A stretch of 47,636 nucleotides of DNA, from NCBI GenBank assembly GCA_000621985.1, contig KK211382.1, positions 1-47,636 of the forward strand, read 5' to 3'. Shown here piece by piece: positions 7,201 to 47,193 of the stretch; the first letter of the stretch is position 1; every line of letters begins with the position of its first letter. The notes under the pieces were generated by a model that saw only the letters and a list, made by a program, of their open reading frames with translations, was not told the DNA's origin and did no database searches. A program made the position numbers and the translations under genes. The DNA comes from Lachnospiraceae bacterium V9D3004 (lineage in GTDB: Bacteria; Bacillota; Clostridia; Lachnospirales; Lachnospiraceae).

Positions 7201-8181
7201 TTCACCTGTTGTTTCATCAACAACATCCTTTGCAAGTTCGAATCCTACCACTCTGTTACGGAGCGCAAGTTTTTTGTTGAACTTATATCTGCCGACTTTT
7301 GCAAGATCATATCTCTTGACATCAAAAAACATACTGTTGACAAGGTTTTCGGCACTTTCAACAGAAAACGGCTCGCCGGGTCTTAACTTTGAATACAACT
7401 CCGAAAGTCCCGACTGATAGTTATCATTATTCTTATCTGAATTAGCGGAAAGACCGTCCGAATCTCCTGAAGCATTTTTGGAATTGCCGACGGAATGCTC
7501 CTTGGATAAGCTGGCAAGGATCTTCGGTTCTTCACCGAACATCTCCAGTATCTCGGCAGCGGTTCCGACACCGAGTGCCCTGATGAATACAGTAATAGGC
7601 ACTTTTCGATTCCTGTCTACACGAACATAGAACACGTCATTAGAATCTGTCTCATATTCAAGCCATGCACCACGATTCGGGATGACCGTACTTGAGAACA
7701 GTCTCTTACCGATCTTGTCATGACCTATGGCATAATAGATTCCGGGCGAGCGAACAAGCTGGCTTACAATAACACGTTCCGCGCCGTTGATAACAAAGGT
7801 TCCTGTCTGGGTCATCAAAGGAAGATCACCCATAAAAATTCCACGTTCCTTAAACTCGTCTTTCTCCTTGTTGTGAAGCCTTACAGTTACTTTGAGAGGT
7901 GCTGCATATGTTGCATCACGCTCTTTGCATTCCTCAATGGAATACTTGATGTCTTCTGTACAAAGCTTGAAGTCAACAAATTCAAGGCTAAGTTTCCCAT
8001 TATAATCATTGATGGGAGAGATGTCCTTGAAGGCTTCCTTAAGCCCTTCTTCAAGAAACCACCCGTAAGAATTCGTCTGTACCTCAATCAGATTAGGCAT
8101 ATCAAGCACTTCTTTTCTTCTTGAGTAGCTCATTCTTACATTGTTGCCAACGTGACTTGGTCGTATTCTGTTTTTCTCCAT
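4288..8181 (-). CDS. rpoB: DNA-directed RNA polymerase subunit beta
   Basis: Beta subunit of RNA polymerase, 1297 residues, co-transcribed with rpoC. The rifampicin-binding region is intact and of the sensitive type ([28 protein letters not shown]). The [13 protein letters not shown] and [17 protein letters not shown] motifs are present. A Ser/Asn/Asp-rich stretch of about 25 residues interrupts the lobe region before LRPGEP, compared with the shorter linker I recall in Bacillus. The ATG at 8181 is preceded by AAGGAGTG. Usually rplJ-rplL lie directly upstream of rpoB; here an intergenic repeat and cysNC do. Confidence 0.98.
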
Positions 8182-8410: not shown

Positions 8411-8595
8411 GTTACTATTCACGTTGCACGTAATGTTATACGGATTTGTCGTGCTTGCATGCAAGAATCTGTATAACATTACGTGTAAGGTTCCGGTGAA
8501 ACAGGAACCGCCCCCACACCCACAGCCGTAAGCAGCGAAGCTGCGACATACGTGAAACGGATGGGCTGTGGGTTGTGGGGCACTTGAATAGTAAC
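8411..8595 (+). mobile_element. Structured inverted-repeat element, copy 1 (MITE-like)
   Basis: A 185-bp element begins GTTACTATTCAC and ends GAATAGTAAC. Stem A (CACGTAATGTTATAC paired with its exact complement, 15 bp) has a loop containing TGCTTGCATGCAAGAA. A GGTTCC/GGAACC hairpin follows. Stem B (CCCACA and CCCACAGCC paired with GGCTGTGGG and TGTGGG) encloses a short GCAGC-GAA-GCTGC hairpin. It matches copy 2 (13814-14006, opposite strand) in termini, loops and the CAGGAACCGC block, while stem A arms differ completely. No clear target duplication flanks this copy (ACAATCAC left, AACCTTAC right). No ORF of substance lies inside. Confidence 0.8.
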
Positions 8596-8608
8596 AACCT
8601 TACACAAC

Positions 8609-8650
8609 AAAAGGTATCAATCCGACATACCGGTCGGTTTGATACCTTTT
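8609..8650 (-). terminator. Intrinsic terminator after cysNC
   Basis: AAAAGGTATCAA (8609-8620) pairs with TTGATACCTTTT (about 8639-8650). An inner CCGAC/GTCGG pair extends the hairpin. The flanking A and T runs make it look bidirectional. It lies 32 bases past the cysNC stop codon. Confidence 0.85.
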
Positions 8651-8681
8651 ATATATCCTTATATCATCATCCACACTGATA

Positions 8682-10499
8682 CTACAGATGAAGCTTCTCT
8701 ATTATCTCGTCCACGCATTCTTCAATATCCCTGCCGGTGGTATCTATCTCCACATCGGGACTTACCGGTGCTTCGTAAGGACTGTTGACGCCTGTGAAGT
8801 TCGGGATCTCATTTTTCATGGCTTTTGCATAGAGTCCCTTCACGTCACGTCTCTTACATTCCTCAACAGGTGTTGACACATATACCTCATTATATGCATC
8901 ACCCAGTATTCCCGCAGCGTTCTTCCTGTCTCTCCTGTACGGCGATATAGCCGATACCATAACAATGATGCCTGCGTCGTTAAGAAGCTTTGCGGCCTCG
9001 GCGATACGTCTGATGTTCTCGGTTCTGTCCGCCTCTTTGAAGCCAAGGTTATTGTTGAGTCCGTGTCTGACATTATCACCGTCAAGTATCATTGTATGTC
9101 TGCCAAGCATAAGAAGTCTCTTCTCCAGGGCATTTGCAAGAGTTGACTTACCGGCTCCCGACAGACCCGTAAACCATACGGTCGCTGCTTTCTGACCAAG
9201 CTTTTCTTCTCTCAGTTCTCTTGTCACATCCATGTTGTGCCATATGACATTGTCGCCTCGCCTTAACTCATGCTCCACGGTTCCGCATGCTGATGTCATA
9301 TTGGTCTCGCTGTCGATAAGTATGAAGCAGCCCAATGCTTTTATCTTCTTAAATGAACTGAATACTATTCGTTCCGACATCATGATCTCGCACACACCGA
9401 TCTCGTTCTTAACGAGAGTATCGCATGCGATATGATTGCCCGTATTGATATCTATCTTGTATCTGATCCTCAGCACGGATGCCGTTATCTTCTTTGTTCC
9501 AAGCTTAAGGTAATAACTCTTGCCTGTCTTAAGAGGTTCATCATCCATCCACAGAAGCTGCCCCTTGAACAGATTGTTGGTCACTGTATCGTTACCGTTT
9601 ACAAGGACACATCCTCTTGATATATCCATCTCGCGGTTTATGACCACTGTTACGGGTTCACCCGCAGATGCCGATTCAACACGTTTGTCACATCTGTACA
9701 TCTCTTTTACAACTGCCTTTTCACCACTTGGCAGTGAAGTGATCTCTTCGCCTTCCTTCACGGTTCCCATCTCTATCTGTCCCTGGAAGCCCCTGAAGTT
9801 ACTGTTAGGTCTGCATACTCTCTGAATAGGAAGCACGAATTCCGTGTCGTCTGTCTGCTCTTCGGTATCAACGTCCTCAAGGTACTCAAGAAGCGGAACA
9901 CCGTCGAACCACGTCATATTATCGGAACCGTTAGTGATGTTGTCACCTACAGTTGCCGATACAGGTATAACATACAGGCTGTCATACTCGATCTCTTCCA
10001 TCATTTTATCTATATCTGCTTTGATCTTTTCGAACACGGCCTTGTCATAGTCTACAAGATCCATCTTATTGATAGTGAATACATAGTGCTTTATTCCCAT
10101 GAGCGCGCATATGCGGAGATGTCTTCTGGTCTGGATCATAACACCGTTTGAAGCATCTATAAGCAGCACGGCAAGATCGGCAAATGATGCGCCCACGGCC
10201 ATGTTACGAGTATATTCCTCATGTCCCGGAGTGTCGGCCACAATAAAACTTCTCTTATCGGTCGTAAAATATCTGTATGCCACATCTATGGTTATTCCCT
10301 GCTCACGTTCTGCCATGAGTCCGTCAAGAAGAAGCGAATAATCAAGTCCGCCGTCATTGCTTCCTATCTTGCTGTCCATCTCAAGCGCGCGCTTCTGGTC
10401 AGCGAATATTAGCTTGGCGTCATAGAGCATATGTCCTATAAGTGTTGATTTACCATCGTCAACGCTTCCGCATGTTATAAACTTAAGAAGGCTCTTCAT
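8682..10499 (-). CDS. cysNC: Bifunctional sulfate adenylyltransferase subunit 1 / adenylylsulfate kinase
   Basis: Fusion of CysN (GTPase subunit of ATP sulfurylase) and CysC (APS kinase), 605 residues. With CysD it makes APS and then PAPS from sulfate in the cytoplasm. The CysN part carries the G1 loop GSVDDGKS (11-18), DTPGH (89-93) and NKMD (144-147). The CysC part begins near residue 437 with the P-loop GLSGAGKS (445-452) and the DGDNVRHG motif (473-480). The start ATG overlaps the cysD stop (TAATG). This NodQ-like arrangement produces PAPS. No APS or PAPS reductase is in the window, and the gene upstream in the operon is a sulfotransferase, so the product may be used for sulfation rather than cysteine synthesis (inference). 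Confidence 0.95.
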   Translation of the reverse strand: MKSLLKFITCGSVDDGKSTLIGHMLYDAKLIFADQKRALEMDSKIGSNDGGLDYSLLLDGLMAEREQGITIDVAYRYFTTDKRSFIVADTPGHEEYTRNMAVGASFADLAVLLIDASNGVMIQTRRHLRICALMGIKHYVFTINKMDLVDYDKAVFEKIKADIDKMMEEIEYDSLYVIPVSATVGDNITNGSDNMTWFDGVPLLEYLEDVDTEEQTDDTEFVLPIQRVCRPNSNFRGFQGQIEMGTVKEGEEITSLPSGEKAVVKEMYRCDKRVESASAGEPVTVVINREMDISRGCVLVNGNDTVTNNLFKGQLLWMDDEPLKTGKSYYLKLGTKKITASVLRIRYKIDINTGNHIACDTLVKNEIGVCEIMMSERIVFSSFKKIKALGCFILIDSETNMTSACGTVEHELRRGDNVIWHNMDVTRELREEKLGQKAATVWFTGLSGAGKSTLANALEKRLLMLGRHTMILDGDNVRHGLNNNLGFKEADRTENIRRIAEAAKLLNDAGIIVMVSAISPYRRDRKNAAGILGDAYNEVYVSTPVEECKRRDVKGLYAKAMKNEIPNFTGVNSPYEAPVSPDVEIDTTGRDIEECVDEIIEKLHL

Positions 10500-11398
10500 T
10501 AGAAATATCCCTCCCTTTTTCTTCTCTCCATACTGGCATTCTCCTCATGATCGATAACACGGCTCGTTCTCTCGGAAGATACAGCACCGAGCGTCTCCTT
10601 AATGATCTCCGGAAGAGTGTCCGCATCAGATTCTATTCCGCCGGTAAGCGGGTAACAGCCGAGCGTACGGAAACGTACTTTCTTCATTTGAGGCTTCTCA
10701 CCGTCAAGAAGTCTCATGCGGTCATCATCAACCATAATGATATTGCCGTCCCTGTATACCACAGGACGTTCTTTTGCATAATAAAGCGGAACTATCGGAA
10801 TGTTCTCGCGCTCTATATACTGCCATATATCCCTCTCGGTCCAGTTGGAAAGCGGGAATACTCTCATGCTCTCCCCTTTTATGATCTGGGCATTGTATAA
10901 CTTCCACATCTCGGGTCTCTGGTTCTTCGGCTCCCAAGCATGGTTGCTGTTTCTGAAAGAGAATATCCTCTCTTTCGCCCTTGACTTCTCCTCATCACGC
11001 CTTCCGCCGCCGAATGCTGCCGTAAAGCCGTATTTGTCAAGCGCCTGCTTAAGTGCCTGTGTCTTCATGACATCAGTATATATGGAACCGTGGTCAAATG
11101 GATTGATCCCTTTCTTAACGCCGTCTTCGTTAGTATAAACGATCATCTCCATGCCGGTCTTTTCAGCGATCTTGTCACGAAACTCGATCATTTCTTTGAA
11201 CTTCCATGTTGTATCTATGTGCATAAGCGGAAACGGCGGCTTCTCCGGGTAAAATGCCTTCATTGCAAGATGAAGCATTACCGAGCTGTCTTTTCCTATT
11301 GAATACAACATTACTACCTTTTCACATTCAGCTGCCACTTCGCGCATTATATATATCGCTTCAGCTTCCAGCCTGTCAAGGTGCGATAGATTACTCAT
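10499..11398 (-). CDS. cysD: Sulfate adenylyltransferase subunit 2
   Basis: Catalytic PP-loop subunit of the CysDN ATP sulfurylase, 299 residues, the usual length. The PP-loop reads YSIGKDSSV at residues 32-40. The [16 protein letters not shown] and [11 protein letters not shown] motifs are typical of the family. The GGAGG site lies a few bases before the ATG. The stop is fused to the cysN start, which indicates translational coupling. It follows the sulfotransferase gene by 127 bases with no clear terminator between; a weak hairpin (CCAAG/CTTGG, about 11445-11468) is present in that gap. Confidence 0.96.
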
Positions 11399-11525
11399 TC
11401 TTATCCTCCTATATTAACTCTTATTGCCAATCTTATAACATCATCCAAGTCCCCGCCGCGAGGCTTGGCGCTGTATTCGGGTCTTCGCAGGTGAACAAAT
11501 ATCCTGTCCGAATCCGTATGATATG

Positions 11526-13646
11526 TTATCTTTCCTCTGCACCGCCCCGACTGATGTTAAAGCTGTGATCCGTATCGTACAGTACATCAAAACATTTCAC
11601 ATATAGATGATAACTTCCATCGGCAATATTGTCCAGCGGAATTGCCATATTATATCCGTAATTGTAGAATAATGCCGGAATATCCTGCCATGTATTGGTA
11701 TAATCCATCATATAAGTATGATCTGCGCTTACCATATACAGGTGGGTAACTATATGGTCAACTGCATAAAACATGAGTATGTTGCCCACAAGTTTAAAAT
11801 TCGTTCTTCCTATCCTTCCGGTATGATCGAGTTCTGCCCATGATCTTCCCTGTGCATACTCTTCATATTCCTTTTCCTTGACCTCACGCGGTTTGACAAC
11901 GCTTGAAGGAAATTCATTCTTTGGTTCAGCCGGAGTATTCTCTTCATTCCTGTCGGAAGGAGGAAGCGGGATCGCCCCGGACACATCGATCGGACTTATC
12001 TCTTCCGTATGATCAAGACTTCCGAATTCCTTTGTATCGTATTCAAGCGGCATTGCTATCGAATTATAGTCTATCTTATATGGATATACTCTGTAGAACT
12101 GTTTTGTGGTTCCGTACAGATTGATCAGCTCGCCGTCCATACTGTAATCATATACAAGACCTCTGCATCCTCTGTACTTCTTGTTAAGGCATCCGCTTAA
12201 CACAAGCACTCTGTCCTTTTTCTTGTCATACACTATATTGGAACGCACCGACGACTTGCGGCTCTCATATGATCTTACCATCTCAACGGTACGATATTTT
12301 TCATTTACCCTGTATATGATTCCGTAAGAATTGGGATCACCATCAAAATTCTCGGTCTTGCGCCTGCTCTGCCAGTGATTGTCATATATGGCGATCTTGA
12401 TCGTGTCGGGTTCATCGTCCGGTTCGGCCGGTATCTGGAATGAAGCATGAGCCTGATAAAACCACTTTATGTCCTCGTCATCCGGCATAAGGAGATATTC
12501 TTTCATAGGTGAATCTCTCCAGAATTCCGGGTCACCGAGCATCCACAATATCTTACCGGTACCCCAGTCAAACTTGATTATACTGTGCAGATTCCTTAAG
12601 CACACAATCACGCTGTTGTCAGGCGCATAATATGAAACCGTGTTCAGATGCGCCCAGTCCGGACTGTCCTTAACACGCTCATCATTGAATACGTTATTCA
12701 TCTCTATGGATCTTACTATGTGACCGGTCTTTCTGTCTATCTCGGCAACAACATCTTCACAGTAGTTAACAAGCGTACTCGTTGCCACAAGATAATTACC
12801 TCCCGGCGACATCTCTACGGCATCATGATGAAGCCCCTTTGCGATGTGAAGAGTCCTTCTTATCCTTCCGAGCAGATCCATCTCATGAACGTATGTGGAA
12901 TGCGGCACGCCGAATCCCGGAGTAAGCACGCCTCTGTCACTGTGGAATAATATTCCGTCAGCCATCGGAAATACACCATAATTCTTACCCGGCTTGATTA
13001 TATAATATCTTACGCGGCCTTTTGAATCGAATATATACGGAAACCATGAGTCAACGCCCGACGCATAATAAAACGGATATGCAGACTCACCATTAATTGA
13101 TAATTTTTTAACAATCCCTTTCATCTCTTCGGGAAGCTCCGGTGCTTCAATAGAAAACTTAAGTGTTCTGCTTCTCATGCCGGAACCCTTAAGCTTAATA
13201 TATATATTATTGATCCTGCCGCCGAACATTCCGACGATAGGTATTCTGTGATGTGTGGTCGGAGGAAGTTCACCGACGATCCTTGTTTCCCTGTCGCATT
13301 CCACCCACATTCTGGAACTGCATGGCTTTTTCGTTGCGAATATGGCAATTGCCGACAGCGGAACATATCCGTATGGATTCATTATTATCAACGGTTTATC
13401 TATGGAATAATCTCCGGATTCCGCAAGTTTCTGTACCACCAGTTCTCTTGCAGCAGTTCTCATCTGCATATTGACTATGCGTTTGATATCTTCGGAATGA
13501 ACATATACGTCTTTTTCGGACAATTCATCAAGATAAGGAGCTGCTTTTTCTTTCATCTCCCCGGATGTCATGATCTGAATATCAGTATTGCTTTTGAACT
13601 TGAATACACGGTGTTTGACTTTTTTTAGCTTATTGATCAGGTTCAT
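11526..13646 (-). CDS. Arylsulfate sulfotransferase family protein
   Basis: A 706-residue member of the arylsulfotransferase family. These enzymes move sulfate from an aryl sulfate to another phenol through a sulfo-histidine. The N-terminal beta domain shows the family signature NPYGYVPLSAIAIF. The propeller holds LHHDAVEMSPGGNYL (His near 273-274), DWAHLNTV (His333, Asn335), CLRNLHSI (Arg351) and WFYQAHASF (His400, likely the catalytic His). The last 150 or so residues form a Pro/Glu-rich linker and a beta-sandwich-like domain. No signal peptide or membrane segment is seen, unlike the periplasmic E. coli AssT. The start at 13646 is chosen for AAGGAGAG upstream; a longer frame from a TTG at 13742 lies upstream of the likely mRNA start. 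It is the first gene of the operon with cysD-cysNC. Confidence 0.88.
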   Translation of the reverse strand: MNLINKLKKVKHRVFKFKSNTDIQIMTSGEMKEKAAPYLDELSEKDVYVHSEDIKRIVNMQMRTAARELVVQKLAESGDYSIDKPLIIMNPYGYVPLSAIAIFATKKPCSSRMWVECDRETRIVGELPPTTHHRIPIVGMFGGRINNIYIKLKGSGMRSRTLKFSIEAPELPEEMKGIVKKLSINGESAYPFYYASGVDSWFPYIFDSKGRVRYYIIKPGKNYGVFPMADGILFHSDRGVLTPGFGVPHSTYVHEMDLLGRIRRTLHIAKGLHHDAVEMSPGGNYLVATSTLVNYCEDVVAEIDRKTGHIVRSIEMNNVFNDERVKDSPDWAHLNTVSYYAPDNSVIVCLRNLHSIIKFDWGTGKILWMLGDPEFWRDSPMKEYLLMPDDEDIKWFYQAHASFQIPAEPDDEPDTIKIAIYDNHWQSRRKTENFDGDPNSYGIIYRVNEKYRTVEMVRSYESRKSSVRSNIVYDKKKDRVLVLSGCLNKKYRGCRGLVYDYSMDGELINLYGTTKQFYRVYPYKIDYNSIAMPLEYDTKEFGSLDHTEEISPIDVSGAIPLPPSDRNEENTPAEPKNEFPSSVVKPREVKEKEYEEYAQGRSWAELDHTGRIGRTNFKLVGNILMFYAVDHIVTHLYMVSADHTYMMDYTNTWQDIPALFYNYGYNMAIPLDNIADGSYHLYVKCFDVLYDTDHSFNISRGGAEER

Positions 13647-13744
13647 ATAATGTGCTCTCTCCTTATCGTAGTGAATGATAACCGTTCCGATTGAATAAGT
13701 AACATGGATCATTGCCTCAATGCATAATAAGGCAATGTACAATA

Positions 13745-13784
13745 CCGATAATATAACATGTCAAAAGTGTCAATATAATGTCAG
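13745..13784 (-). promoter_or_regulatory. Sulfotransferase operon promoter with TGTCA repeats
   Basis: Minus-strand TTGACA (13768-13773), 17 bases, then TATCGG (13745-13750) form a candidate promoter with a weak -10. On the plus strand TGTCA occurs three times, at 13759, 13768 and 13779, spaced 9 and 11 bases, which resembles a tandem binding site. An 8-bp inverted repeat (CATTGCCT at 13710-13717 with AGGCAATG at 13730-13737) would lie at the start of the transcript. Confidence 0.45.
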
Positions 13785-13805
13785 TGTAAAAAATATAACA
13801 GATTC

Positions 13806-14014
13806 TATTTTTTGTTACTATTCACAGTTCCCCACGCCTCAACCCATAGCCCATCTGCTTCGCATCTGTCGCGGCTTCTCCGCTTATGGCTATGGGGCGT
13901 GGGAGCGGTTCCTGCTTCACAGACCCCCTTCGGATAATCAAGGCTGTTTCTTACATGCAAGCATGACGTATCAGCCTTGATTGTCCGAAGAACTGTGAAT
14001 AGTAACTATTTTTT
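13806..14014 (-). mobile_element. Structured inverted-repeat element, copy 2, with 8-bp target duplication
   Basis: The element spans 13814-14006 (193 bp). Its ends form a perfect 17-bp terminal inverted repeat, GTTACTATTCACAGTTC. Both sides carry TATTTTTT (13806-13813 and 14007-14014), a perfect 8-bp direct repeat that marks insertion. Read on the minus strand the order matches copy 1: stem A with loop TGCTTGCATGTAAGAA, the CAGGAACCGC block, then stem B (CCCACGCC and CCATAGCC paired) enclosing a GCGG/CCGC hairpin. The first base is the last base of the trkH stop codon, and the duplication includes the last trkH codons, so that reading frame survives. It contains no gene and is probably a non-autonomous transposon. 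Confidence 0.85.
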
Positions 14015-15445
14015 CCATGTCACAGGTGCAAACAAAAGCAATATCGGGAATATCTCAAGCCTTCCAACAAGCATATCCATGATCATCACACATTTGGACA
14101 ATATGGAGAAATCGGCGTAATTACCTGAAGGTCCGACCATTCCGAGTCCGGGACCGATATTATTGATCATTGCAGCCACTGACGTAAATGATGTGGTGAA
14201 TCCGAAGTCATCCCAGCTTATGATCATAAGCGAAAGGACGAATATTACTATATATACGATCAGAAATGCATTGGTTCCCTGCAGCACTTTTGCACCTACG
14301 GGCTTTCCTTCCATCTTGATGGAGTATACGCTTCTTGAATGTATGCTCTGCATTACTTCAACTTTTGCCTGTTTGATGTAAAGCATTATTCTCGATATCT
14401 TGATTCCTCCGCCGGTACTTCCCGCGCAGGCGCCCCCGAACATTATTATAACAAGAATAGTCTTTGATAATGTGGGCCATTTATCAAAATCAGCCGTTGA
14501 GAATCCGGTGGTGGTCATTATAGATGACACGGAAAATGCCGCATCTTTTATTGAAGTACCTATATCACCGCCTGCTTCTATAACGATATTCGCTGTTATG
14601 AGAACTACCGCTGCAATAAATATTCCGGCGTACGCGCGTACCTCTTCCATCTTAAAGGCATCACGCCATTTTTTATTGATAATGAAGTAATAAAATGTAA
14701 AGTTGACACCGAACAGGAACATGAAGATCGTAACAACAATCTGAATGTATACGCTGTAGCCCGCCATACTGTCACCTTTGATCCCGAATCCTCCGGTACC
14801 GGCCGTACCGAGCGCGGTACATACAGAATCAAACAAAGGCATTCCTCCAAAAAGCAGGAATAAGAGTTCGGCTACAGTTAACACAATATACATTATGTAT
14901 AGAAGTTTGGCTGTCTTTCGAAGTCTCGGAACGAGCTTACCGACAGAAGGTCCCGGGCTCTCCGCCCGCATAAGATGTATGTTGTATCCTCCGGCAAGAG
15001 GCAGGATCGCGAGCATGAACACAAGCACTCCCATACCGCCTATCCAATGTGAAAAACTCCTCCAGAACAATACCGAATTCGGCATGCTTTCCACATCACG
15101 AAGTATACTGGCACCGGTAGTCGTGAAACCGGATACTATCTCGAACAATGAATCAATATATGACGGTATCGCACCGCTTATACATAACGGCAGCGCACCG
15201 ATGATACTGAGCAAAACCCAGCTTAAAGCAACAATTACAAAACCTTCTTTAGCGTATATATGACTGTTTGCAGGTTTGCGAATGCGAAGGAGAGTTCCGA
15301 TAAGCGCAGCTCCTGCTGCACAAATGAGAAATACTACGCCCTCCGATTCACCATATATGAGCGCGACCACGACGGGCAGAACCAGAAGACCCGCTTCAAC
15401 GGATATTACCCACCCAAGCAAATATCTGATACTTTGGTAATTCAT
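14006..15445 (-). CDS. trkH: Trk potassium uptake system membrane subunit
   Basis: Ion-conducting membrane subunit of the Trk/Ktr K+ uptake system, 479 residues with about ten hydrophobic segments. The four pore-loop filters are visible: GFTTTGAS, GTAGTGGFG, TTTGFST and NNIGPGLG. The GGACAGSTGGGIK loop of the TrkH family is also present. The ATG at 15445 is preferred because AGGGG lies seven bases upstream; the TTG at 15451 is too close to it. The gene follows trkA by about 36 bases, so the two form an operon. Its TAG stop is exactly where the repeat element begins. Confidence 0.96.
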   Translation of the reverse strand: MNYQSIRYLLGWVISVEAGLLVLPVVVALIYGESEGVVFLICAAGAALIGTLLRIRKPANSHIYAKEGFVIVALSWVLLSIIGALPLCISGAIPSYIDSLFEIVSGFTTTGASILRDVESMPNSVLFWRSFSHWIGGMGVLVFMLAILPLAGGYNIHLMRAESPGPSVGKLVPRLRKTAKLLYIMYIVLTVAELLFLLFGGMPLFDSVCTALGTAGTGGFGIKGDSMAGYSVYIQIVVTIFMFLFGVNFTFYYFIINKKWRDAFKMEEVRAYAGIFIAAVVLITANIVIEAGGDIGTSIKDAAFSVSSIMTTTGFSTADFDKWPTLSKTILVIIMFGGACAGSTGGGIKISRIMLYIKQAKVEVMQSIHSRSVYSIKMEGKPVGAKVLQGTNAFLIVYIVIFVLSLMIISWDDFGFTTSFTSVAAMINNIGPGLGMVGPSGNYADFSILSKCVMIMDMLVGRLEIFPILLLFAPVTWKK

Positions 15446-15480
15446 AATCAATCCCCTAAATATATAATAAACTGAACATC

Positions 15481-44638: not shown

Positions 44639-44710
44639 GTTCCCTTAGTTAAATGGATATAACAAGCGCCTCCTAAGCGCTAGTTGTGAGTTCGATTCTC
44701 GCAGGGAACG
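44639..44710 (+). tRNA. tRNA-Arg (anticodon CCU)
   Basis: Complete cloverleaf: acceptor GTTCCCT/AGGGAAC, D-arm GTTA/TAAC, anticodon stem AGCGC/GCGCT with loop CTCCTAA (anticodon CCU, reading AGG), T-arm GTGAG/CTCGC with loop TTCGATT, discriminator G. CCA is not encoded. A palindromic element starts three bases after the end. Confidence 0.97.
44655..44670 (+). repeat. Direct repeat of a tRNA-Arg segment, copy inside the tRNA
   Basis: The 16-mer GGATATAACAAGCGCC from the D-arm and anticodon stem of the tRNA recurs exactly at 44925-44940, 270 bases downstream. Fragments of tRNA genes left downstream often mark attachment sites of integrated elements, though integrases more often use the anticodon loop or 3' end. 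Confidence 0.75.
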
Positions 44711-44713
44711 CTC

Positions 44714-46723: not shown

Positions 46724-47107
46724 ATGATCTATGGATATGCCCGCTGCTCTACTTCAGACGGTCAGGGATAAGAAGCTGATCCTCGATATCGGTGGTTCTT
46801 TCCGTGTTGACTGCTCCAAAGGTGATATGGATCCAATGACTGAAGGTATGGTAAAGATGTGGGGCGTATTTGCCGAGATGGAGCGTAATATCATATCACA
46901 ACGTGTAAGATTCGGCATGATGAACGCAGCAGCCAAAGGCAAAAATATCGGAAGACCGGAAACCACAAAGGACAGACTGCCGGATAGATTCTGGAAATAC
47001 TACAGTCTATATAAGGATAATCAGATAAATATTTCCGAATTTGCAAGAATAATGGACTGTTCACGGACTCTATCTATAAGTATATCAAGATTGCGGAGAT
47101 GGACTAA
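46724..47107 (+). pseudogene. Serine recombinase (resolvase/invertase family), degraded
   Basis: The ATG at 46724 has AGGAGG upstream and encodes the resolvase start MIYGYARCSTSDGQG, with the catalytic Ser after RCST, then a stop. Another frame continues (from about 46760) with TVRDKKLILDIGGSF, DPMTEGMVKMWGVFAEMERN, the E-helix RVRFGMMNAAAKGKNIGRP and the start of the helix-turn-helix. Compared with intact relatives, about 70 residues of the catalytic domain are missing at the junction. A second frameshift near 47064 restores SIYKYIKIAEMD and a stop that lies in a terminator stem. Two lesions make it inactive. Confidence 0.85.
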
Positions 47108-47130
47108 GTTTCCATCTCCGCCATTTTATT
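47093..47130 (+). terminator. Terminator overlapping the recombinase end
   Basis: GCGGAGATGGA (47093-47103) pairs with TCCATCTCCGC (47111-47121), followed by CATTTTATTG. It is a perfect 11-bp stem. The 5' arm contains the last codons of the ancestral recombinase frame, which supports that frame as the original one. Confidence 0.82.
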
Positions 47131-47193
47131 GTTCTGTGCGGAATGGAGATATAAAATATTCTGTTTAATATTTTGCACTTTGAGGAGGTTCAT

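Follow-up and report, generated by a model that had tools for sequence, protein, structure and literature searches.

Two copies of a short, geneless repeat in the genome of Lachnospiraceae bacterium V9D3004 (GCA_000621985.1; 3.42 Mb, labelled G000 here) very likely belong to a family of non-autonomous IS66-type miniature inverted-repeat transposable elements (MITEs) in which a distinct folded core, probably specific to one strand, would serve the element itself during its life cycle. Both copies lie in the window, the whole 47,636-nucleotide stretch that was analysed, which corresponds to positions 1-47,636 of contig KK211382.1. Elements of this kind are small and widespread, and they probably move with IS66-type help while keeping their fold across bacteria despite changed letters. 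A preliminary description had proposed a mobile family with terminal inverted repeats, and the evidence for mobility and covariation is stronger than that description could give.

BLAST searches of the same genome give 26 matches with copy 1 and 42 with copy 2, fragments and self-palindromes being counted, and at least 18 near-full-length copies were found in this way. By DNA similarity only one of 60 other genomes matched, and weakly. A covariance model (R1) built from 17 own-genome copies has matches at E<=1e-3 in 28 of 145 genomes, including this one and four of nine congeners, and at E<=1e-6 in 69 of 397 Lachnospiraceae genomes, again with this one included; R1 matches reach 65 of the 334 sampled genera of the family. 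These searches used strict filters and scored up to 18 candidates per genome in the 145-genome set, up to six in the 397-genome set and up to three in the transposase search described below, so that copy numbers per genome are lower bounds. The covariance-model search of Lachnospiraceae that the preliminary description had proposed thus finds further copies with compensatory stem changes, and neither outcome named there as refuting the family, a lack of copies in related genomes or stem differences that do not compensate, was encountered. The mobile family is borne out by the many copies in related genomes, by significant covariation and by target-site duplications (TSDs).

The TSDs were sought in 135 collected elements, a set that takes in some of the R1 matches from the 145- and 397-genome searches; 65 could be used, and 70 were set aside because they do not have two ends within two mismatches or have a flank shorter than 12 bp. 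The 8-bp flanks match at seven or eight of eight positions in 26 of the 65, copy 2 among them, and 15 are exact. Shuffled (re-paired) flanks match in 0.14% of cases, such that about 0.1 element would be expected by chance, and nothing comparable is seen for duplication lengths of 4-7 or 9-12 bp. Matching 8-bp flanks indicate that the elements are DNA transposons, and near-identical copies at different sites in some genomes (G084 and G091) indicate that movement there is recent. The ends take the form GTWACWRTTCAS, and the end pattern has 47 matches in the V9D3004 genome against none for the reversed pattern. At three positions in two genomes (L193:696, L193:3292 and L209:1297) 18-bp remnants, GTTAC(A/T)(A/G)TTCACAGTAAC, were read by eye between exact 8-bp repeats; the junction is the same all three times, and these may be excision scars.

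A larger element with the same ends and a transposase, as the preliminary description suggested looking for, is represented in G084 by a 2308-bp element with 28-bp ends starting GTTACTTTTCACGGGG, which encodes a 581-residue protein (P0002) with an IS66 DDE domain (64 bits against Pfam PF03050, cut-off 23). Homologues of P0002 at E<=1e-40 are present in 12 of the 397 genomes, G084 included, and in eight of these 12 loci (L381-L385, L387, L389 and L390) GTTAC-type ends flank the transposase on both sides; the remaining four have such an end on one side only, one mismatch being allowed throughout. An end match at this stringency is estimated to arise by chance in about one-third of loci, and two facing ends around the gene in eight of 12 are, on the same estimate, beyond chance. 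Of the eight, L381, L382, L385 and L390 were scored for TSDs, and exact 8-bp TSDs are present at L385, where the transposase frame is free of stops, and at L390. Four aligned proteins, one of them partial, retain D330, D380 and E504 (P0002 numbering), which we take to be the IS66 catalytic residues. The first bases are GTAAC in G084 and in some G089 copies, and GTTAC in the window copies. We class the elements as IS66-type MITEs, ISBst12-like, because ends of this kind also bound elements with an IS66-like transposase, two of them with exact 8-bp TSDs, and because ISDge4, considered at the end, is similar. An IS66-type DDE transposase supplied in trans would bind the ends and move the element, either today or formerly.

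Several results weigh against this assignment. P0002 scores 137 bits against the NCBIfam IS66 model, under its cut-off of 180; TSDs are absent from the IS66-like loci L381 and L382, and L387 starts at a contig edge. The V9D3004 genome contains no P0002 match at E<=1e-40 and no intact partner, only a C-terminal IS66 transposase remnant (PF03050, 43.7 bits) that stops beside a GTAACTGTTCAG end, although a MITE as such does not need a transposase gene in its own genome. In G089 and G091, both rich in copies, nothing matches PF03050 at E<=1e-3. Partner and MITE seldom co-occur, with two of the 12 partner genomes (G084 and G361) among the 69 that are model-positive, and the sequence common to the MITE and IS66-like ends is only about 12 bp.

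Canonical IS66 elements of the copy-rich genomes were rejected as the partner, since PF03050 is present in only three of the six, with none in G089, G091 or G143. The two canonical IS66 loci of G084 (L234 and L237) have no GTTAC-type ends. Six single-contig genomes searched with the exact end pattern, which misses ends such as GTTACTTTTCAC, have no convergent pair of ends 1-4 kb apart. In five other genomes searched with this pattern the sole pair among those listed is an IS4-type unit of G100, 1748 bp long, which is not taken to be the autonomous element because IS4 insertion into GTWAC ends explains most such units; it is itself one of the symmetric units described below.

That the partner is instead the IS4-type transposase of units such as L192 and L212 (GTTACTATTCACAGTC + CAATG...CATTG + GACTGTGAATAGTAAC) is very improbable. 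At L192, L350 and L380 an IS4-type element does lie between two GTTAC-type ends, and the outer 8-bp flanks match at seven, eight and six of eight positions, respectively; the transposase was read in L192 alone, and L350 and L380 are assigned by their ends. However, the IS4-type element carries different ends, CAATGTCATTTAGTTA, makes a separate TSD of 10 bp and lands inside GTWAC ends, and for these reasons it was set aside as the autonomous element. A pattern scan of public genomes with a preset 16-base spacing returned at least 120 stretches, and among those listed there are 123 IS4-end matches, 53 of them with the other end resolved; the remaining 70 mostly lie close to where a contig or locus stops. 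Of the 53 that are resolved, 39 have a 10-bp repeat (at least eight positions matching), which is the GTWAC end itself duplicated, eight are symmetric without it, and six are neither; L380 is counted twice among the eight, and L363 and L372, scored as neither, look symmetric with a one-base shift. The transposase search, which presets no spacing, likewise places IS4-type ends within GTWAC ends, at a distance of 16 bases at L212 (on both sides), L213, L223, L227 and L229, and of 15 bases at L220. Judged by a 10-bp TSD beside CAATG-type ends, the GTWAC elements fall outside the IS4 family, as their TSD is 8 bp.

At L270, L280, L290, L332 and others of L261-L380, GTWAC element ends contain, with a 10-bp duplication, IS4-type elements of about 1.7-1.9 kb or short elements, mostly 140-350 bp, that share their CAATG ends. 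Symmetric IS4-ended units between two GTWAC ends, lacking the 10-bp duplication, are seen at L192:1074-2821, L350:1218-2950, L380:2240-4983 and in L274. They may reflect an end-replacing insertion, as for IS1272, or recombination between two insertions. IS1272 is reported to insert at inverted repeats, in some cases without a TSD (PMC5678879), and the eight symmetric matches are alike in having none; they differ in being IS4-type, and 39 of the 53 resolved matches do carry the 10-bp TSD.

The second component of the family is its folded core. Both window copies share a layout in which the ends form an outer stem that encloses three hairpins: hairpin A, which is long and has a conserved apex, a small one in the middle, and hairpin B, which has two tips; the hairpins are predicted folds. 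The parts are as follows.

8411..8595, plus strand: element copy 1, 185 bp (R1 188 bits; copy 1 is among the 17 model-building sequences)
8411..8422, plus strand: copy 1 left terminal inverted repeat, GTTACTATTCAC
8584..8595, minus strand: copy 1 right terminal inverted repeat, with a single mismatch
8426..8486, plus strand: copy 1 hairpin A, apex GTGCTTGCATG (predicted fold)
8489..8509, plus strand: copy 1 small middle hairpin, GGTTCC..GGAACC (predicted fold)
8511..8580, plus strand: copy 1 hairpin B, with two apical sub-hairpins (predicted fold)
13814..14006, minus strand: element copy 2, 193 bp (R1 167 bits; copy 2 is also in the model)
13995..14006, minus strand: copy 2 left terminal inverted repeat, exact GTTACTATTCAC
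13814..13825, plus strand: copy 2 right terminal inverted repeat, exact GTTACTATTCAC
13928..13990, minus strand: copy 2 hairpin A, apex ATGCTTGCATG (predicted fold)
13907..13927, minus strand: copy 2 small middle hairpin (predicted fold)
13831..13905, minus strand: copy 2 hairpin B (predicted fold)
14007..14014, minus strand: copy 2 left TSD, AAAAAATA
13806..13813, minus strand: copy 2 right TSD, AAAAAATA

Both copies are present at the positions and on the strands first reported, with terminal inverted repeats common to both; coordinate 14014, where the preliminary description ended, is the outer edge of the 8-bp duplication, and copy 2 proper stops at 14006. The predicted folds have free energies of -99.8 kcal/mol for copy 1 (z -11.2) and -98.2 kcal/mol for copy 2 (z -9.4), and for each none of 200 dinucleotide shuffles is as good. 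The compensatory changes reported earlier in stem B are present (CCCACA/TGTGGG versus CCCACG/CGTGGG, ACAGCC/GGCTGT versus ATAGCC/GGCTAT, and GCAGC/GCTGC versus GCGG/CCGC), and in the alignment of the 17 own-genome copies 93% of cells pair and 34 of 59 pairs have both-sided changes, a number reached by none of 500 shuffles and compared with 9-13 in slid controls. With one element taken from each of 41 genomes, the hairpin A arms have an identity of 0.31 between genomes, and an arm is complementary at 0.90 to its partner within the element versus 0.32 to the arm of another genome, although the within-element value is too high, its pairs having been drawn from the best alignment, a point that tempers our reading. 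The hairpin arms are long and near perfect, with a median of 37.5 aligned pairs in 126 elements (fewer enter the mismatch analysis below, which has a minimum of 20 pairs). Arms with letters that are near-unrelated between genomes and complementary within an element suggest that the pairing is constrained and the sequence itself hardly at all.

The loops are conserved across the family, as first described. The further statement that the stem A arms are unrelated in sequence holds between the two window copies outside the apex, and between genomes, and does not hold within the V9D3004 genome; there the other copies have graded, partly shared arms, and the arms are not freely replaced as had been proposed. 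Matches of the copies to miRNA families are taken to be chance hits of a long hairpin. Hairpin B is partly duplicated in tandem beside a full copy at G000:C7:78230-78513 (L002, L023), and elements from two other genomes contain a nested folded module of about 50 additional bases, including a block that resembles GACCGAAGCGGAGCG, located in the middle hairpin in L162 and L165 (G084) and in hairpin B in L129 (G089).

If double-stranded DNA or a cruciform alone were responsible, G.T and A.C mismatches should be equal, because a G.T on one strand reads as an A.C on the other. On the modelled strand, distinct mismatch events outside the apex comprise 88 G.T and 45 A.C (p 2.4e-4); G.T predominates in 22 genomes and A.C in six, with seven ties (p 0.004), and the 18 BLAST-found copies of the V9D3004 genome have 13 G.T and four A.C (p 0.049). 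This excess points to a folded single strand with a fixed orientation, either RNA or single-stranded DNA, and disfavours a DNA-only cruciform. It fits the earlier suggestion that the active form is single-stranded and folded, with the mismatches fitting RNA and single-stranded DNA alike. On the other side, R1, with which the other-genome copies were collected, scores G.U above A.C and may bias the count, and strand-biased damage such as deamination of an exposed strand could mimic the excess; a fold-blind repeat yielded nine hairpins in 45 elements with one G.T and no A.C, a set too small to weigh. The hairpin tips, as loop-by-genome counts, are GNA 64, GNRA 19, GNYA 10, other triloops 28 and other tetraloops 77, a distribution that favours neither DNA nor RNA.

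An alternative is that the arms are kept by copying rather than selection. Fold-back of DNA during replication or repair, with one arm rewritten from the other, is a mechanism known in general, and it would let the letters drift while the palindrome stays, in keeping with the length and near perfection of the arms and their freedom between genomes. It predicts equal G.T and A.C, contrary to the counts, and it leaves the conserved apex, the middle hairpin and the asymmetric internal loop unexplained, so that we regard it as unlikely. Far less probable still, to the point of being nearly dismissed, is movement as single strands by a Y1 transposase in the manner of REP/RAYT or IS200/IS605 elements, which the hairpins with conserved tips and the strand-specific fold do resemble; the sharp 8-bp TSD disfavours it, and we know of no target duplication made by Y1 transposition.

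The orientation of 114 insertions relative to host genes, after removal of short, edge and duplicate elements, is 47 tandem sense, 40 tandem antisense, 11 convergent and 16 divergent. This absence of bias speaks against a role in read-through mRNA, and a co-transcribed regulatory RNA was rejected on the same ground; it suggests that the fold likely serves the element rather than the host. We infer that the element itself makes use of the core during its life cycle, in the form of a folded single strand with a set orientation. RNA is the more likely acting form, and the strand is perhaps the element's own transcript, with a chance somewhat short of even; that it is single-stranded DNA is distinctly less probable.

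The core also shows a distant relationship to the Clostridiales-1 motif (RF01699, gathering cut-off 48 bits), which a 2010 report (PMC2864571) lists among probable RNAs, with a cis-regulatory role marked as improbable. Copy 1 scores 30.4 bits against RF01699 (E 0.0009), under the cut-off, and copy 2 has no match at E<=10. Among 20 element loci from other genomes, three match at E<=0.01 (L250, 40.9 bits; L247, 39.7; L109, 30.6) and 17 do not; in a second set of 20 loci the matches beyond four true Clostridiales-1 loci are L118 (38.7 bits), L122 (33.5) and a hairpin beside L017 (31.3). In the reverse test, three of these four true loci obtain 16-27 bits against R1. The likeness comprises an outer stem, a long hairpin A with a GTGCTTGCAC-like apical hairpin, further hairpins that are often GAA-tipped, and occurrence in Clostridia. 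In contrast, the four Clostridiales-1 copies of the V9D3004 genome, all above the cut-off, lack GTWAC ends, and the matching elements score 30-41 bits, below the cut-off. The relationship is therefore read as a superfamily sharing an apical hairpin and not as membership. One Clostridiales-1 RNA (L029, G000:C15:57638-57794; 91.9 bits) lies on the same contig outside the window, and long hairpins with a GTGCTTGCAC-type apex and no adjoining GTWAC ends are seen at L031, L113 and L118, such that the apical module also occurs outside the elements.

The elements could on these grounds be primarily Clostridiales-1-type noncoding RNA genes for which mobility is incidental, a doubtful reading that nonetheless deserves more weight than arm copying. 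It draws on the sub-cut-off matches to copy 1, L250, L247, L109 and L122, on the shared apical hairpin, on the above-cut-off copies in the same genome and on a strand-specific fold; against it, all scanned elements are under 48 bits, only three of the first 20 loci match at E<=0.01, and the insertion sites have 8-bp TSDs and no orientation bias. Under the preferred assignment to IS66-type MITEs, the core would be a separate folded module, distantly similar to Clostridiales-1, lying between IS66-type ends. A bolder version, possible but tentative, is that a large structured-RNA class, with Clostridiales-1 as one settled branch, parasitises IS66-type transposases, the ends providing movement and the strand-specific fold something needed, for example recruiting or timing the transposase, with the arms freely rewritten while pairing persists.

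Copy 1 lies between two genes named here from their translations, a presumed cysN/C-like gene, whose 3' end is at 8682, and presumed rpoB, which starts at 8181. Copy 2 lies directly 3' of the stop codon of a presumed trkH-like gene, also named from its translation (open reading frame 14006-15451, minus strand), and the last base of that TAG stop is the first G of the element. Near the end of the window are a tRNA-Arg (44639-44711) and, about 2 kb after it, an open reading frame (46731-47168) that reads like a serine recombinase, which together may mark an integrated element.

A covarying fold in a small transposon across many genera makes the purpose of the fold a mutational question. The Clostridiales-1 motif, so far unexplained, may have originated from this family. 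The family also shows that covariation alone, as used in noncoding RNA discovery, picks up transposons as well, and it has brought to light IS4-type elements that land in the ends of another transposon. The preliminary description knew of no described family with these features. Literature on the end sequences, on Lachnospiraceae MITEs and on IS66 MITEs, covered by titles and abstract openings and with subscription journals mostly outside that coverage, yielded no paper on the family, in agreement with that statement; its ends and 8-bp duplication are nevertheless IS66-type, and its core is distantly Clostridiales-1-like.

Among known repeats, ERIC, Correia, RUP and bcr1 are short non-coding bacterial sequences with inverted ends and fold-back structure, like the elements described here, and differ from them in their ends and duplication lengths; a further difference is that a single covariance model tracks the fold here from genus to genus. 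The closest comparison is with the ISBst12 group of the IS66 family. Two reports give 8-bp repeats for IS66 elements (PMC12898284, PMC11946415) and terminal repeats of 20-30 bp that start GTAA, with GTAAGCG as an example (PMC11946415), and describe ISDge4, of the ISBst12 group, with the ends GTGACTACTCAGCA and GTAACTGCTCAGCA, a pair that includes GTGAC and GTAAC starts, and an 8-bp repeat (PMC12898284). The elements here are unlike this group in being about 170-225 bp and geneless, in that many subfamilies start GTTAC rather than GTAA, and in holding a folded core that was absent from the 15 IS66 loci searched. They resemble it in that GTAACTGCTCAG of ISDge4, as given there, is nearly the same as GTAACTGTTCAG and GTTACTATTCAC here, in the 8-bp repeat, and in that elements with the same kind of ends carry an IS66-type DDE domain.

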